64,000 nt of DNA, taken from Asticcacaulis solisilvae. Its GTDB lineage: Bacteria; Pseudomonadota; Alphaproteobacteria; Caulobacterales; Caulobacteraceae. The stretch covers positions 124,001-188,000 of the forward strand of contig NZ_JAGGMI010000002.1 of the NCBI RefSeq assembly GCF_017875235.1, written 5' to 3'. Positions 45,201 to 53,501 of the stretch are shown in pieces (the stretch's first letter is position 1; each line of letters starts with the position of its first letter). The position numbers were made by a program, and so were the translations under genes. Below the pieces are notes generated by a model. That model did not search any database. It was not told where the DNA came from and saw nothing but the letters and a program-made list of their open reading frames with translations.

Positions 45201-46100
45201 TCACCAGCGGCGTGGCAGCTCGACATTGATATGCGTGGCCGCCACCGCCGCCTGCCCGACGGCGACGCTGATCTGGTTCAGCCCGCTGACGACGTCGCCC
45301 GCCGCATATAGCCCCGGCACCGAGGTCTGCTGATAGGCGTCGGTCACCAGATTGCCGGCGCTGTCGCAGTCGGCGCCCAGGGCCAGCGCCAGACCGGATC
45401 GCGGCCGGCAGCCGAACATCGGATAGATGCTGTCGAAGACGTGCACCTGACCGTCGACCACCGCCGCGGCTTCGCCTGTCTCGCTGACCTTCAGCGCCGC
45501 CTGCGACGATTCCAGCAGGCCGATTCCCGCCTCGGACAGGCAGTTCTTCTGGTCGGTCGTCAGGCCGTCCTTCTCCATGACGTGGATCAGGGTCAGGTCG
45601 GCCGTGTAGGTCCTCAGGAAAAGCGCGTGCGCCATGGCGCCTTCGGTCCGCGCCATGATCGCCACCCGCTTGTCGATGATCTCATAGGCATCGCACACCG
45701 GGCACAGCCGCAACGCGCCTTTGGAAACCGCTGTCGCCCAGTTCGGCGTATCCATCCCGGCATCCGTAATGCCCGTCGTCAGGATCACCGTCCGCCCCAT
45801 GACGCGCTCCGGCCCGAAACAGGCGGCGAATCCGCCTGCGTCTCGCTCCAGCGCATCCGCCAGGCCGTCAAATCGCGCCACTTCGTAGGCGGACAGCTGC
45901 GCGTTCAGCCGGCCCAGCAGGCTCAGGCCGGTTACGCCGTCCGGAAAGCCCGGGAAGTTGTGCGACACCGGAATAAGCTCGGCGCGGCTGCGGCCATTGT
46001 CGATCAGCGCCACCGAGCGCCGGAACCGCGCCATGTAAATCGCCGCCGTCAGACCCGCCGGCCCGCCGCCGATGATCAGGCAATCAAAGACCGGCGGCAT
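45201..46100 (-). CDS. Thioredoxin-reductase-like FAD/NAD(P) oxidoreductase
   Basis: A 299-residue flavoprotein. FAD site IIGGGPAGLTAAIYMAR at the N-terminus, a CPVCDAY motif near residue 140 equivalent to the CxxC redox pair of thioredoxin reductase, and the C-terminal FAD motif LYAAGDVVSGLNQISVAVGQA. The second glycine-rich NADPH motif is weak (VAIMARTEGAM), so pyridine-nucleotide use is uncertain. ATG 46100 gives the family start; the frame continues upstream without homology. Convergent with the winged-helix gene with a 7-base gap. Confidence 0.86.
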   Translation of the reverse strand: MPPVFDCLIIGGGPAGLTAAIYMARFRRSVALIDNGRSRAELIPVSHNFPGFPDGVTGLSLLGRLNAQLSAYEVARFDGLADALERDAGGFAACFGPERVMGRTVILTTGITDAGMDTPNWATAVSKGALRLCPVCDAYEIIDKRVAIMARTEGAMAHALFLRTYTADLTLIHVMEKDGLTTDQKNCLSEAGIGLLESSQAALKVSETGEAAAVVDGQVHVFDSIYPMFGCRPRSGLALALGADCDSAGNLVTDAYQQTSVPGLYAAGDVVSGLNQISVAVGQAAVAATHINVELPRRW

Positions 46101-47054: not shown

Positions 47055-47672
47055 TCAGCCCAACTTTCGCGCTATAAATTGAGTCACCGAGCCGGAACCC
47101 GTGTGGCCCAGGCCTTCGCGGATGTCGTGGACAGTGTCCCGCGCCAGGATAATCTCGAAGCCTTCGAACGCCTCGACAAGCATGTCCAGTGACGTCAGAT
47201 AGTCGACATCCTTCGGCCCGCCAGTGCAATAAGACAGTTGCGCGGCATTATAGCCTTCCAGCAGAAATACCCCGCCGGGCTTCAGCGCCGTCCGGATCGC
47301 GGCATAAAGCGGCGGCCGGTCGCGCGTAGACAGGTGGCAGAAGATCGACACCACGCCGTCCCAAGCGGCGGTCCCCATGTCATAGCGCGTGAGATCGGCC
47401 AGGACATAGTCAATCGCGACACCGCGCGCCCTGGCAAGACCCAAGGCCTTGGCCTGGCCTTCCGGCGAAAAATCAACGCCTTGTACCCGGCAGTTCTGTT
47501 CCGCCAGGAAGACGGCATTGCGCCCTTCGCCTTCAGCCAGGCTCAATACCCGGCCGCCAGGGCCGAACAGGCCGGCATGTTCGCGCAGGAAGTCGTTGGG
47601 CTCGGCGCCGTAAAGATAGGCTTCCTGCTTGTATCGCTCGTCCCAGAAGTCCGCTCCCGTAAATCCGGTCAT
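47055..47672 (-). CDS. Class I SAM-dependent methyltransferase, TehB-like
   Basis: A 205-residue methyltransferase. FWDERYKQEAYLYGAEPNDFL at the N-terminus and the SAM site VLSLAEGEGRNAVFLA (motif I) identify the TehB/thiopurine-like subgroup, which includes tellurite-resistance enzymes. ATG 47672 is supported by AGGAA just upstream on the coding strand. It is divergent from a MerR-family gene, and its promoter has the long spacer that MerR proteins act on. Confidence 0.87.
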   Translation of the reverse strand: MTGFTGADFWDERYKQEAYLYGAEPNDFLREHAGLFGPGGRVLSLAEGEGRNAVFLAEQNCRVQGVDFSPEGQAKALGLARARGVAIDYVLADLTRYDMGTAAWDGVVSIFCHLSTRDRPPLYAAIRTALKPGGVFLLEGYNAAQLSYCTGGPKDVDYLTSLDMLVEAFEGFEIILARDTVHDIREGLGHTGSGSVTQFIARKLG

Positions 47673-47729
47673 GGTCACATTCCTTATCTGATTCAATAAA
47701 TTGCCCGCATATCCTTACGAGTCTGGAAA

Positions 47730-47760
47730 AGTCTACAAGTTCAAGCTAACTTGAGGTCAA
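47730..47760 (-). promoter_or_regulatory. MerR-type promoter (19-bp spacer) of the methyltransferase gene
   Basis: On the reverse strand TTGACC (47755-47760) and TAGACT (47730-47735) are separated by 19 bases instead of 17. The spacer contains the dyad CAAGTT-N6-AACTTG (47736-47753). The overlong spacer with a central dyad is the hallmark of MerR-activated promoters, and the merR gene starts 25 bases away on the other strand. Confidence 0.78.
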
Positions 47761-47784
47761 GGATAAAAAACGCAAGGCTTGCCC

Positions 47785-48180
47785 ATGCTCGACATCGCCG
47801 AAGTCGCCAGACAGTCCGGCCTGCCGGCCTCGACCCTACGCTTCTACGAGGAAAAGGGCCTGATCGCCTCGATCGGCCGGCGCGGCCTGAAACGCCTGTT
47901 TGAAACCGCCGTGCTCGAGCGCCTCTCGCTGATCTCGCTGGGCCGCAAGGCCGGCTTTTCGCTCGACGACATCGCCGCCATGTTCGGCGTCGATGGCAGC
48001 GTGCACATCGATCGCATGACCCTGGCGGCCAAGGCCGACGAACTCGACCGCACGATTCGCCGCCTCAGCGCCTTACGCGATGGCCTGCGGCACGCCGCCC
48101 AATGCCCGGCGCCCAGCCATCTCGAGTGCCCGACCTTTCAGCGTCTGCTGAAGGGCGCCACAAAGCCGAAGCGCGCCTAA
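47785..48180 (+). CDS. MerR-family regulator with C-x7-C sensor loop
   Basis: A 131-residue regulator. The N-terminal winged helix (IAEVARQSGLPASTLRFYEEKGLI) is followed by the dimerisation helix (about 80-112) and a C-terminal CPAPSHLECPTFQRLL. Two cysteines seven residues apart and the CP...CPxxxxL frame resemble the metal loop of CueR-type sensors, though His/Glu in the loop differ. ATG 47785 has AAGG 7 bases upstream; TTG 47779 is less likely. Probable regulator of the divergent methyltransferase. The 3' end overlaps the K+ channel gene by four bases. Confidence 0.87.
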   Translation: MLDIAEVARQSGLPASTLRFYEEKGLIASIGRRGLKRLFETAVLERLSLISLGRKAGFSLDDIAAMFGVDGSVHIDRMTLAAKADELDRTIRRLSALRDGLRHAAQCPAPSHLECPTFQRLLKGATKPKRA

Positions 48181-49193
48181 TCCCTGCCGGTGCGCGCAAT
48201 CTCGACGATTACATCCCCGGCCTGAAGCGCTTTCGCTTCCTCTTCCCAATAGCCGTGGATCCTGCCGCCACGGCACAGGCGCAGGCCCTTGCCGGTCGTA
48301 AGCGATTCAAGCGATTGGCCGGCTTCGTCGGCCGTAATTTCGCGCTCGCGCAGCACCACGCAGCCATCGGCTGAAGCCAGATCGGCAATATATTCGACCA
48401 CGTGCCGGCCTTCCGAAGCCCGCGCCAGCAGGTGTCCACCCATGCTTACCGGATTGATGACGTTGTTGGCGCCGGCTTGCCGCATCAGGTCTTCGTTTTC
48501 GGTTGCGCGGACCGCGGCGCTGATCGACACGGTGGGATTCATCTGCCGCGCGCTGAGCACGATCAAAACGGTCGAATCGTCACGATGGGTCGATATGATG
48601 ACCGCCCGGGCAGTGGCGATGTTGGCGGCAGCCTGTGTGGCGTTCACGGTCGCATCACCGACAATGCCAGTGACGCCGCGTTCTATGGCCGCGGAGATGC
48701 GGTGCTCGCTCTGATCGACGACGACGATGGTTTCGCACTTCTCGCCTTGGCGCAGCAGCTCATCGACCACCGATTCGCCGGTGGCGCCATAGCCGTAGAT
48801 GATGATGTGGTCCTTCAGTGTTTTCCGAATCATGTGCGTCCGAAACTGCTCCCACGTGCTTTTGAGCACCAGCGTGTAGGCGGTGCCGAGAAAGATGATC
48901 CAGATAAACAGCCTGACCGGCGTCACGACAAAGGTATCGAACATGCGCGCCCGGTCGCTGACCGGCACGATATCGCCATAGCCGACGGTCGTAACCGTTA
49001 TGGCGGTGAAATAGACGACATCGCTGAATGATACGTGGCCATCGATATTGTCCTTCAGTCCTTCGCGGTCCAGCCAGTGGCCGCCCATGGCAATGCCGAC
49101 GAAGAGAAGGCACAGCATGGCCCGCACCCACAGCGACTGCCATACATTCATCTTTGGCTTGCGCTTCAGCACAAGCGGCAGGGTTACGGGCAT
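48177..49193 (-). CDS. Potassium channel with TrkA-N (RCK) domain
   Basis: A 338-residue inner-membrane channel. Two membrane helices (about 23-42 and 88-110) flank the pore with the selectivity filter TTVGYGD. A cytoplasmic RCK domain follows (about 128-250) with the Rossmann motif IIYGYGATGESV, then a short TrkA-C-like part. Layout is that of Kch/MthK-like channels gated by a ligand. It lies 64 bases downstream of the EEP-family gene on the same strand. Confidence 0.92.
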   Translation of the reverse strand: MPVTLPLVLKRKPKMNVWQSLWVRAMLCLLFVGIAMGGHWLDREGLKDNIDGHVSFSDVVYFTAITVTTVGYGDIVPVSDRARMFDTFVVTPVRLFIWIIFLGTAYTLVLKSTWEQFRTHMIRKTLKDHIIIYGYGATGESVVDELLRQGEKCETIVVVDQSEHRISAAIERGVTGIVGDATVNATQAAANIATARAVIISTHRDDSTVLIVLSARQMNPTVSISAAVRATENEDLMRQAGANNVINPVSMGGHLLARASEGRHVVEYIADLASADGCVVLREREITADEAGQSLESLTTGKGLRLCRGGRIHGYWEEEAKALQAGDVIVEIARTGRD

Positions 49194-50234: not shown

Positions 50235-53200
50235 CTAGAACTGGAAGCGCGTGCGCAGCGACAGGCTGTAGTTCTTGTAGGCTTCCAGATCCTGGTAATT
50301 GCCTTCCAGCGAGAAGTAGCTGTACTCGTTGTCGGTCGACAGGCGGAAACCGGCCACCGGCCCACCGCCGGTGATTTCGCCGCCGTTCAGCGTGAAGGCC
50401 GTGCCGCCCTTGAAGTTGGCGACCGTATCGCCCAGATCGCCGGCGACGCTCTGCTTCCAGCCAATCCACAGTTCCGGACGGATGAACCAGCGCGTATAGC
50501 TGACATTCACGAGCGCCTTGGCGCTTGCAATCTTCGAATCACGGCTGGCGACATCCAGGTTGAAGTAGTCGCCGCCACCGGTCTCGGACCGCTCTTCTTC
50601 GTTGAGACCGAAGAAGTCCGCCGTGAGCGCCGGCGTGACATTGAAGAAGCCGGCACGATAATCGACCGAGGCGCCGATACCGGCGCTGTACGAATAGCCG
50701 TTCCACTCCGATTCGGCGACATGCGCCACCTGCTTGCTCAACAGTTCGCGCGTCGATTCGAACTGCGCGAAACCGGCGCCGACATGGGCCCAGCCCTTGA
50801 AGCCGCCGCTGCGCATCCGCCAGTAACCGCCGATGGTCAGGTCCGACGCGACCAGGTCTTCGTTGCCGATGGCGAAGCTGTCGATCGGGGTCGTCGAGGT
50901 ATAGGCCAGGTATACGCCGACCATCGACTTGTCGCCCATGGCGGTTTCACGGCCGCCGGCGAAGCTGAAGCCGGTCGCCTCGAAGCCCGCGGTGTCGCCG
51001 CGTTCGCGCTCGTTGCGGAAGCCGTATTCCTGCAGCCAGTACTGGCCGCCGTCATTGTTCGGAATGACGGTGAGGCTGCCCAACCCCTGCGTCAGCGATT
51101 CGTGGCCCTGGGCCAGGGTGATGGCGGTTTCGCCCGAATAGTCCGGCAGATACTGGTTATAGATCGGGTCGAAGGCGTCCTTGGTCAGGGTCGACATGAT
51201 GGCCGCCGTCGCCGCGGCGTCCTGCTTGACCGCGTTCATGACCGGGAGGAAGGCGGCGTATTCGTTGTCCGTGAAACCGGCTTCGGCCTGGGTCTTCAGG
51301 CGGAAATTGGCCGACAACGTGGTCTTGGCCGCGTCGGTGGTCAGGTCGGCGTGATAGACATAAGGCGTACGGCCATCCAGGGTGGTAGCCATATTGCCGA
51401 GATTGATATTCGACGCCGTCATGACGGTGAAGCTCTGCGGCGTCAGCAGGACGTTGTTGAGCGCGATATTGAGCGTCGCGCCATTGTCGAAGACCGCCGT
51501 GCCGGTCGCCGCGAAGACCGGCGTCGTCGGGGCGGTAGTGTCGAGCGTAATGCCGAGCGTCGCCTTGTCACCGACATGCAGCGTCGTCAGGTTGAGCCGG
51601 GTTCCGGCGGTCAGGGCGGCGGCCGACGTGCCGCCGATATCCAGGGCAACCGTTCCCGTGCTCGACAGCTTGCCGAAATAGGTCGATGCGCCGGTCAGGA
51701 TATAGCTGTTGGCGCCGGCGCCGAAGTCGATATTGCCCGAAATCGTGCCGCCGTTCTGGGCGATGGCGTCGCCGCCCGAACCCAGCAGGATGTCACCGAC
51801 GATGAACGGGGCGGCAATGGCCTTGTCGGCGTCGGAATCGGTCGGCGCGGTATCGGTCTGGGTCAGGGTCAGGCCGACCGTGTTGGTCCGCGTGTCGATG
51901 GCGACCGGGCGATTGACGAGCGTGTCCGCGACGCCGTCGCCATTGTCGTCGCTGGCCGTGATCGTGGCGGCGATGATATTCTTGTTGTTAAGCGTGGTCA
52001 GGGTGTTCGACTGGTCGCGAATGGCGGCCGCATTGGCCGTCGAACCGGTTGCCGTTGCCTGGACCGATGATCCGGCGGCGATGTCGATGACGGCCAGGTT
52101 GGCGCCCGCGGCGATGTCGATGGCGCGGGCCGTCGTGCCGGCGCCGACCGTGGTATAGGTCGTGGTGCCGTTTGTCGTCGTTCCGGTCGTCACGGTCGCG
52201 ATCGTGGCGCGGATGGTTCCCTTGTTGATGTCCAGGCGGGGCGTGCTGAGGCCCGCACCGACCAGGAGGCCCGTCGCGTTGCCGCCGCCCGACGTCGCGG
52301 AGATGACACCAGTGGTATTGTAGACGCCGATGCCGTTGGCGATAGTGACCGCCTGGCCCAGGCCGCCCAGTTGCACCGCCGTGCCGTTAATGCCCGTATA
52401 GACGCCCGCGCCGGTGATGCCGCCGCGAATCAGCAGGCCGTAATTTACGGCAGGCGGCGAAACGGCGGTCGAAGCATAGGTGACGCCGCCCAAGGTCGTC
52501 GCTGTCGTGGCGGACCCGATGCGCAGGGCAGGGGCAGAACCATAATTTGTAATGTTGGCGGTACCCTGATCACTGTCAACCTGGCCGTCCCCGTCCTCAT
52601 CCGGGTTGCTATCGGCCGACGAGGTGTCGGTATCGACATTGTTGGCCTGGGCCGCACCGATGAGCACGCCCTTGGTATAGTTGCCCGACAGGCTGACGGT
52701 CGCGCCGCTCTGATACATGTCTTCCGGCGTGGCCATGACGGCCTTGAGCTGGTCGGCCGTCAGGGTCGACGGCGTGGCCGTCGCATAGCCCGACGACGAG
52801 TAGCCGCCGTCGATGATGACCGAACCGCCGAAGTCGCCGTTGAGGACGGCCACGGAGCTATCCTTGCCGTGCACGCCGATGGTGCCGGAAAGAATCACAT
52901 TGCCGGTTGCACCGTTCTCAAGCGCGATGGCGGTATTGTTGTCGCCTTCCATGGCGATGGTGCCATCGGTCTTGAAGGCGCCGTCGATCTTGTTCTCGAA
53001 GCGCACGCCATAGGAATTATTGCCTTCGACCTTGATGGCGGCGGCGCTGGAGACCGTCACATTGCCGACAAACGGCGTTGTTCCCGTCGAACGGACGCCG
53101 TAACGGCCGGTGCCTTGCGCGAACGGGCCGTCCAGAACGCCGTCGCCCGTGTTCTTGCTGTCCGTGGCCGTATAATCGTCGGTGACCGTGATGGCGCCGC

Positions 53201-53501
53201 CAATCGTCAGGGTCGAGGTCCGGCCGCCGTCAATCAGGACCGCCGTCGAATTGTCGGCCGACTTCGCCATGTCGATGGCGCCGGTCAGGCTGACGGTATT
53301 GTTGGAATTCACCGTGATGGCGGTGCCCGAAGTCAGGGTAATCTTGCCGTTCGAATCAACCGTCAGGTCGCCGGTGGTCGTCGTATTGACGGGAGCGGTG
53401 GTGGCGGTCGAGATCGTCGTCGCGGCCAAGGCCTGTCCGGCGACAAGGCCCGTCAGGATAAGGCCCAGAGCTGTGGCGGACAGAAGCTGGTGTTTGCGCA
53501 T
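50235..53501 (-). CDS. Autotransporter (type Va) with long beta-helix-like passenger
   Basis: A 1088-residue protein. Signal peptide at about 1-26 (GQALA-A); passenger at about 27-800, rich in Thr, Ser, Gly, Ala and Asn with repeating short strands as in beta-helices (GNVTVSSAAAIKV, GTIGVHGKDSSVAV); autotransporter barrel at about 810-1088, ending LRTRFQF. Two acidic calcium-loop-like segments lie in the passenger (DEDGDGQVDSD near 300 and DDNGDGVADT near 520). No protease catalytic set seen, so adhesion is more likely. ATG 53501 is the first start that gives the signal. Monocistronic, with terminator. Confidence 0.92.
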   Translation of the reverse strand: MRKHQLLSATALGLILTGLVAGQALAATTISTATTAPVNTTTTGDLTVDSNGKITLTSGTAITVNSNNTVSLTGAIDMAKSADNSTAVLIDGGRTSTLTIGGAITVTDDYTATDSKNTGDGVLDGPFAQGTGRYGVRSTGTTPFVGNVTVSSAAAIKVEGNNSYGVRFENKIDGAFKTDGTIAMEGDNNTAIALENGATGNVILSGTIGVHGKDSSVAVLNGDFGGSVIIDGGYSSSGYATATPSTLTADQLKAVMATPEDMYQSGATVSLSGNYTKGVLIGAAQANNVDTDTSSADSNPDEDGDGQVDSDQGTANITNYGSAPALRIGSATTATTLGGVTYASTAVSPPAVNYGLLIRGGITGAGVYTGINGTAVQLGGLGQAVTIANGIGVYNTTGVISATSGGGNATGLLVGAGLSTPRLDINKGTIRATIATVTTGTTTNGTTTYTTVGAGTTARAIDIAAGANLAVIDIAAGSSVQATATGSTANAAAIRDQSNTLTTLNNKNIIAATITASDDNGDGVADTLVNRPVAIDTRTNTVGLTLTQTDTAPTDSDADKAIAAPFIVGDILLGSGGDAIAQNGGTISGNIDFGAGANSYILTGASTYFGKLSSTGTVALDIGGTSAAALTAGTRLNLTTLHVGDKATLGITLDTTAPTTPVFAATGTAVFDNGATLNIALNNVLLTPQSFTVMTASNINLGNMATTLDGRTPYVYHADLTTDAAKTTLSANFRLKTQAEAGFTDNEYAAFLPVMNAVKQDAAATAAIMSTLTKDAFDPIYNQYLPDYSGETAITLAQGHESLTQGLGSLTVIPNNDGGQYWLQEYGFRNERERGDTAGFEATGFSFAGGRETAMGDKSMVGVYLAYTSTTPIDSFAIGNEDLVASDLTIGGYWRMRSGGFKGWAHVGAGFAQFESTRELLSKQVAHVAESEWNGYSYSAGIGASVDYRAGFFNVTPALTADFFGLNEEERSETGGGDYFNLDVASRDSKIASAKALVNVSYTRWFIRPELWIGWKQSVAGDLGDTVANFKGGTAFTLNGGEITGGGPVAGFRLSTDNEYSYFSLEGNYQDLEAYKNYSLSLRTRFQF

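Follow-up and report, generated by a model that had tools for sequence, protein, structure and literature searches.

Which signal does a MerR-family regulator answer when the gene that it faces encodes a methyltransferase? The targets usually associated with this family are pumps, reductases or a second regulator, and a locus of Asticcacaulis solisilvae raises this question within the stretch of 64,000 nucleotides analysed here (contig NZ_JAGGMI010000002.1, positions 124,001 to 188,000; hereafter the window, whose numbering we use throughout). Our best reading, to which we give a probability of roughly 0.6, is that this regulator may be a local, one-target activator of SoxR type, with a cysteine-pair sensor, that would induce one detoxifying methyltransferase.

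The divergent pair and its promoter

The cassette comprises the following features:

47785..48180, plus strand: MerR-family regulator of a SoxR-sister subfamily (ORF, domain models, alignment, tree, fold)
47055..47672, minus strand: presumed target gene, encoding a 205 aa class I SAM methyltransferase of the Slr1183 type (ORF, domain, structure-database match)
47681..47685, minus strand: probable ribosome-binding site AAGGA of the methyltransferase gene, 8 nt 5' of its ATG (inspection)
47730..47760, minus strand: promoter directed towards the methyltransferase gene, with -35 TTGACC (47760-47755), a 19-nt spacer and -10 TAGACT (47735-47730) (sequence)
47738..47760, minus strand: SoxR-type operator TTGACCTCAAGTTAGCTTGAACT (comparison across related loci)
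48091..48129, plus strand: putative sensor motif H105-x3-C109-x4-H114-x2-C117 (HAAQCPAPSHLEC) (88-row alignment)

By inspection, the likely start of merR is the ATG at 47785 (131 aa), with an alternative TTG at 47779 (133 aa), and that of the methyltransferase gene is the ATG at 47672. The regulator matches the domain models PF13411 (2.1e-12) and PF09278 (1.3e-11) and belongs to the MerR superfamily, having its helix-turn-helix, its dimerisation helix and a palindrome in a spacer within the 19-20 bp typical of this superfamily. An earlier note on this DNA had described a compact divergent circuit of MerR type whose output is a methyltransferase and no pump, and this description stands. Both ORFs are found, on opposite strands, and the gene divergent from merR carries a methyltransferase domain (PF13649, 1.4e-14). 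The dyad sits, as proposed, inside the 19-base spacer of the minus-strand methyltransferase promoter, and the C-x7-C loop has its cysteines at positions 109 and 117 in the numbering of the 133 aa protein.

Convergent with merR lies a potassium-channel-like gene with ion channel and TrkA_N domains (48177-49193, minus strand), the two 3' ends overlapping by 4 bases. The opposite flank holds a tRNA-Val and an HU gene; beyond them, and sharing no operon with the methyltransferase gene, 45204-46100 (minus strand) encodes a thioredoxin-reductase-like FAD protein with a CPVC motif, which scores 133.9 bits with TIGR01292, under the cut-off of 343.45. A 1088 aa autotransporter with a C-terminal PF03797 beta-domain is encoded at 50235-53501 (minus strand). 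A phage origin was rejected, as the PHROGs matches were to unnamed families only (41.4 and 22.8 bits).

Kinship and putative sensor residues of the regulator

SoxR is the nearest known relative of the regulator in sequence, fold list and tree. Among solved structures, the best sequence match was SoxR (1.8e-14), followed by CueR (1.3e-12). When an AlphaFold2 model of the regulator (43 sequences, mean pLDDT 88.6) was used in a fold search, SoxR came first (Z 12.8, rmsd 4.2, 117 aligned); the remaining MerR proteins followed from Z 11.8 downward, CueR at 10.2. The family alignment has 88 rows, namely the window, seven from relatives and 80 collection loci; these 80 ranked best among 579 confirmed stretches, so that counts among them hold for close relatives of the window regulator. 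The tree sets the 88 family rows apart by a branch with support of 100/96 and splits the family together with 9 SoxR rows from 15 CueR rows by a branch with 100/95, both under unsettled bootstrap, few columns and long-branch warnings. Internal stops led us to leave out SoxR rows L123 and L124 and CueR row L128, leaving 9 of 11 and 15 of 16 rows, respectively; the own-genome row L004 was also absent, and own_L005 is the same gene as CueR_L134.

Membership in SoxR was nonetheless rejected, as two of the four cluster cysteines are missing and the score with the NCBIfam SoxR model TIGR01950 is 62.7 bits against a cut-off of 116.9. The regulator had also been called CueR-like, a label that we abandon. 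It scores 60.7 bits with the NCBIfam CueR model TIGR02044 (cut-off 147.4), all 15 CueR rows of the tree lie across the 100/95 branch, its operator is of another type, and the genome carries a separate true CueR elsewhere (174.6 bits); no SoxR above the model cut-off was found in this genome. The regulator resembles CueR and HmrR in its C-x7-C loop, its size and its 19-bp spacer promoter, but it differs from them in clade and operator, in lacking their invariant Ser and in having no copper gene adjoining. We found no description of the regulator family in the literature, the coverage of open-licence papers making this a weak absence.

The putative sensor loop is nearly constant across the 88 family rows, which include the best 80 of 579 loci: C109, C117 and H105 occur in all 88, H114 in 87, and a Pro follows the C-x7-C loop in 87. 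The cluster cysteines of SoxR (9 rows) fall in columns 106, 109, 111 and 117, of which the window keeps two, and the SoxR pattern C-x2-C-x-C-x5-C is absent from its regulator. In the same family rows, again including the best 80 of 579, each of the two lost cysteine columns holds Ala in 85/88, the column that is Trp in 9/9 SoxR rows holds Arg in 87/88, and the Ser of 15/15 CueR rows appears in only 5/88, being His in the window. We take the Trp and Ser columns to lie near the effector sites of SoxR and CueR. With the Trp column and half of the cluster cysteines lost, SoxR chemistry cannot simply be assumed for this regulator. Judged by its sequence, the protein is neither SoxR nor CueR, keeping two of the four SoxR cluster cysteines along with two near-invariant histidines, and C109 and C117 likely have a sensor role.

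These residues might instead hold a noncanonical iron-sulphur or metal cofactor on two Cys and two His, which would make the regulator a SoxR-like redox sensor with altered ligands. That C109 and C117 align with cluster cysteines of SoxR, that H105 is invariant and H114 almost so, and that DNA site and kinship are those of SoxR all speak for such a cofactor, whereas the Ala and Arg replacements speak against it. In addition, H105 is found in 5 of the 15 CueR rows, and hence it need not be a ligand. We consider this cofactor quite unlikely; as it is a variant of the best reading, the weights given to the rivals need not sum to one. The loop also bears on the idea that the regulator senses Cu, Ag, Au or Te/Se/Hg in the manner of CueR, with its two cysteines binding the ion and the methyltransferase detoxifying a metalloid. 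Here the C-x7-C spacing, identical to that of CueR, is offset by the score far under the CueR cut-off and by the near loss of the Ser invariant in CueR, and the DNA sites and target genes must also be weighed.

Operator and outputs across genomes

We scored the operator as the pattern TTGACCTCAAGTNNNCTTGAAGT, with 20 scored bases, and called a box at 16/20 or more. Among the best 80 of 579 loci, 79 have a box, which always reads away from merR, and no second box at this threshold occurs in the 653,798 bases of these loci. Letter-shuffled upstream regions (plain shuffle, one strand) reached a maximum of 15/20 in 1,600. The remaining locus, L069, lacks both the box and a divergent target. Downstream of the 19-nt spacer, the 79 sites read [CT]ANNNT, with A at the second base in 78 and T at the last in all 79. 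The box is also present in 7/7 relatives carrying the regulator and in all five plasmid loci read, out of 55 plasmid records that carry the regulator. When up to 3 mismatches were allowed, the own genome of 5.0 Mb gave a single match to the pattern, at this locus and with 0 mismatches (0 for the reversed-pattern control), and the idea of a genome-wide regulon was rejected on this ground.

The site is of SoxR type, because a similar box scoring 14-18/20 lies just upstream of soxR in 11 true-SoxR loci (ten from the same class and E. coli soxR), whereas in 16 CueR loci the best score anywhere in the stretch was 11-13/20 and the operator was found in none. The CueR operator signal used for comparison comes from the accessible text of PMC1526738. 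Instead of a CueR-type operator with a copper efflux target, the window has a SoxR-type box, set in a 19-bp-spacer promoter, next to a methyltransferase gene. The promoter was compared with that of the divergent soxR-mfsA pair of Stenotrophomonas maltophilia (TTGACC-19-CATGCT), for which the accessible text of PMC4411124 reports experimental proof that SoxR activates the promoter and that soxR is self-repressed. Matches to the operator strings in the literature were to an E. coli SoxRS-based expression system and to SoxR of S. maltophilia. Like E. coli soxR-soxS and S. maltophilia soxR-mfsA, the cassette has this operator type just upstream of the regulator gene and a divergent target; unlike them, the window family lacks two cluster cysteines and the Trp column, and its outputs are mostly methyltransferases.

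What differs from locus to locus is the target, the regulator, its box and their orientation staying the same; methylation is the commonest theme. Outputs were classed by tblastn with seven queries, L007-L013 and L083 being named from translations. Within the best 80 of 579 loci, merR is divergent from a gene for a SAM methyltransferase of about 285 aa in 53, with DUF2938 behind it in 14 of these, and from DUF2938 (PF11158) itself in 17 (16 by tblastn; in L098 it starts slightly farther off). The rest are MFS transporters in three (L033, L076 and, by inspection, L083), TPMT in two (L060, L094) and a Slr1183-type enzyme in one (L034, Achromobacter), and four have no recognised gene directly divergent (L069, L084, L099, L103). 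L084 and L099 were counted among the four although each has an MFS gene on the appropriate strand some 0.8-1 kb away, as this gene does not adjoin the box. DUF2938 thus recurs as an apparent target, alone or behind the ~285 aa methyltransferase (L028-L107), which offers a lead to its function; no paper tying it to MerR was found in the open-licence literature. In L053 and L095 a WrbA-like flavoprotein gene follows DUF2938, the L053 protein scoring 93.2 against a WrbA cut-off of 141.

Beyond the collection, the regulator was detected at E <= 1e-15 in 7 of 148 relatives' genomes (own excluded); by inspection, the gene opposite the regulator encodes a methyltransferase of the ~285 aa type in five of the seven and an MFS transporter in the other two. 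In the five plasmid loci read of 55 records, the output is an MFS gene in H2, H17 and H27, an annotated tpm in H9 (Calothrix) and, in H13, a small hypothetical gene followed by DUF2938.

For a CueR-like metal sensor, these outputs carry some support. TPMT is the target in L060, L094 and the Calothrix plasmid, and the L060 protein passes the Se/Te TPMT model (256.6 bits against 223.2). Moreover, plasmid H27 has arsC and an arsenic transporter gene about 1 kb beyond merR, although its divergent gene is the MFS. On the other hand, no metal pump was found among the classified outputs of the best 80 of 579 loci, the operator is missing from all 16 CueR loci, and the genome has its own CueR. Weighing both sides, we find this metal sensor rather unlikely.

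The methyltransferase and the proposed switch

The best solved relative of the window's methyltransferase is Slr1183 of Synechocystis (PDB 2kw5, 2n47, 3mer), to which it is similar over nearly its full length (residues 9-204, 1.6e-49). W10, GEGR at 48-51, GGP at 151-153, EG at 186-187 and H190 are present in 28/28 rows, including the window, and are visible in Slr1183. The enzyme had been described as TehB-like, but TehB identity was rejected at 20.3 bits against a cut-off of 219.5 (TIGR00477). It also falls below the Pfam TPMT cut-off (21.8 against 26 bits), sharing with TehB and thiopurine S-methyltransferase the general SAM-methyltransferase fold; in L060, L094 and the Calothrix plasmid, members of this regulator family drive a TPMT instead. 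We know of no MerR partner of Slr1183, and the abstracts of papers naming it give no function.

How did such an enzyme come to face this regulator? In relatives, 13 counterparts (E <= 1e-25) have neither regulator nor box within 1.5 kb on each side, and the methyltransferase gene of the window therefore appears to have come under the control of the switch. The window's regulator groups with that of L049, whose output is the ~285 aa enzyme (91/81, modest support), and that of L034 groups with Burkholderia ones (99/86). These positions in different parts of the tree suggest that the pairings of the window and L034 were two separate captures of a Slr1183-type enzyme. The enzyme tree is compatible with two captures: unconstrained, it sets the window and L034 apart, the latter with an Enterobacter plasmid gene (94/92), and a single transfer for both pairings received a p-AU of 0.062, a value that does not reject it.

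The same observations could mean that the methyltransferase gene drifted beside a MerR cassette that had lost its own target, making the pairing accidental and non-functional. L034 is the only further Slr1183-type pairing in the best 80 of 579 loci, four of these loci lack a recognised directly divergent gene, and the 13 counterparts adjoin neither regulator nor box, all of which would fit. However, box, spacing and orientation are intact, the gene has its own ribosome-binding site, and the second pairing, in Achromobacter, has a regulator placed elsewhere in the tree. An accidental pairing thus seems very improbable to us.

The neighbours of Slr1183-type enzymes elsewhere suggest, by gene context, that these may be sulphide, persulphide or thiol methyltransferases. 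Of 17 plasmid records with the enzyme, 11 were read, and 7 of these (a raw count) have sulphur genes within 3 kb of the enzyme gene (H32, H35, H36, H41, H42, H46, H47), namely rhodanese, sulphur transferase, DsrE or thiosulphate/sulphite/sulphate transport genes. None was found within this distance in H31, H38 and H43, and H34 offers no more than a cut cysteine synthase gene. The Slr1183-type enzymes with rhodanese or other sulphur genes beside them (L016, L148, L149, L156, L158, L160-L162) occur on plasmids of Pseudomonadota, Bacteroidota and Bacillota; in L016 a TauE gene adjoins the enzyme gene. In the 6-row clade of the window enzyme, rhodanese neighbours only L148, so the sulphur link is weaker for the window's branch; there, L147 has WrbA and GST genes, L155 only a cut cysteine synthase gene, and no sulphur neighbour was noticed in L145 and L034.

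Returning to the SoxR-type activator, operator, geometry, orientation, conservation and kinship are established at the level of sequence, and operator control of the methyltransferase promoter is strongly supported by the same kind of comparison. The soxR-mfsA pair of S. maltophilia, having the same promoter geometry, serves as the model. A MerR-fold dimer would sit on the box in the 19-bp spacer and keep the methyltransferase promoter off; by analogy, it may also repress its own gene, because the box ends 24 bp before the merR start codon. Modification or ligation of C109 and C117, possibly with H105 and H114, would then twist the DNA and allow RNA polymerase to read the methyltransferase gene. 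The enzyme would methylate the toxicant or its product, probably at sulphur or another soft atom. From what is known of SoxR and MerR, we infer the DNA distortion and the autorepression; more weakly, we infer the inducer class and S-methylation, the latter being the best guess because Slr1183-type enzymes adjoin sulphur genes elsewhere. Redox-active, electrophilic or sulphur/chalcogen inducers are favoured by the SoxR kinship and by the genes driven, whose products are enzymes or exporters, and copper seems a less likely inducer than a toxicant that is thiol-reactive, redox-active or of sulphur/chalcogen type. Sensing of the copper type is disfavoured, and metals and metalloids in general are kept as less likely candidates.

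A bolder reading, which we advance tentatively and put somewhat below even odds, concerns the family as a whole. It would be a widespread sister family of SoxR that kept the SoxR DNA code, rebuilt its sensor on a near-invariant His-Cys-His-Cys motif, perhaps as a two-Cys/two-His cofactor, perhaps as a thiol switch, and adopted methylation as its main response. Promoter and sensor would have stayed fixed as methyltransferases from at least three distinct subfamilies replaced one another behind them.

Judged by its homologues, the cassette is one of a large family, and the importance of the finding rests on the regulator family more than on the window's single copy. A SoxR-type switch that usually drives a methyltransferase points to a common, little-studied route by which bacteria may render a small toxic compound harmless. 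Because its box is so well conserved (79 of the best 80 of 579 loci), targets of the switch are easy to find, and the family provides a first functional lead for both Slr1183-type methyltransferases and DUF2938. The family is also a natural experiment on which signal is left to a SoxR-like protein once half of the cluster ligands are gone. If true, the rebuilt-sensor reading would add a new stress-sensor class whose regulon detoxifies by methylation.
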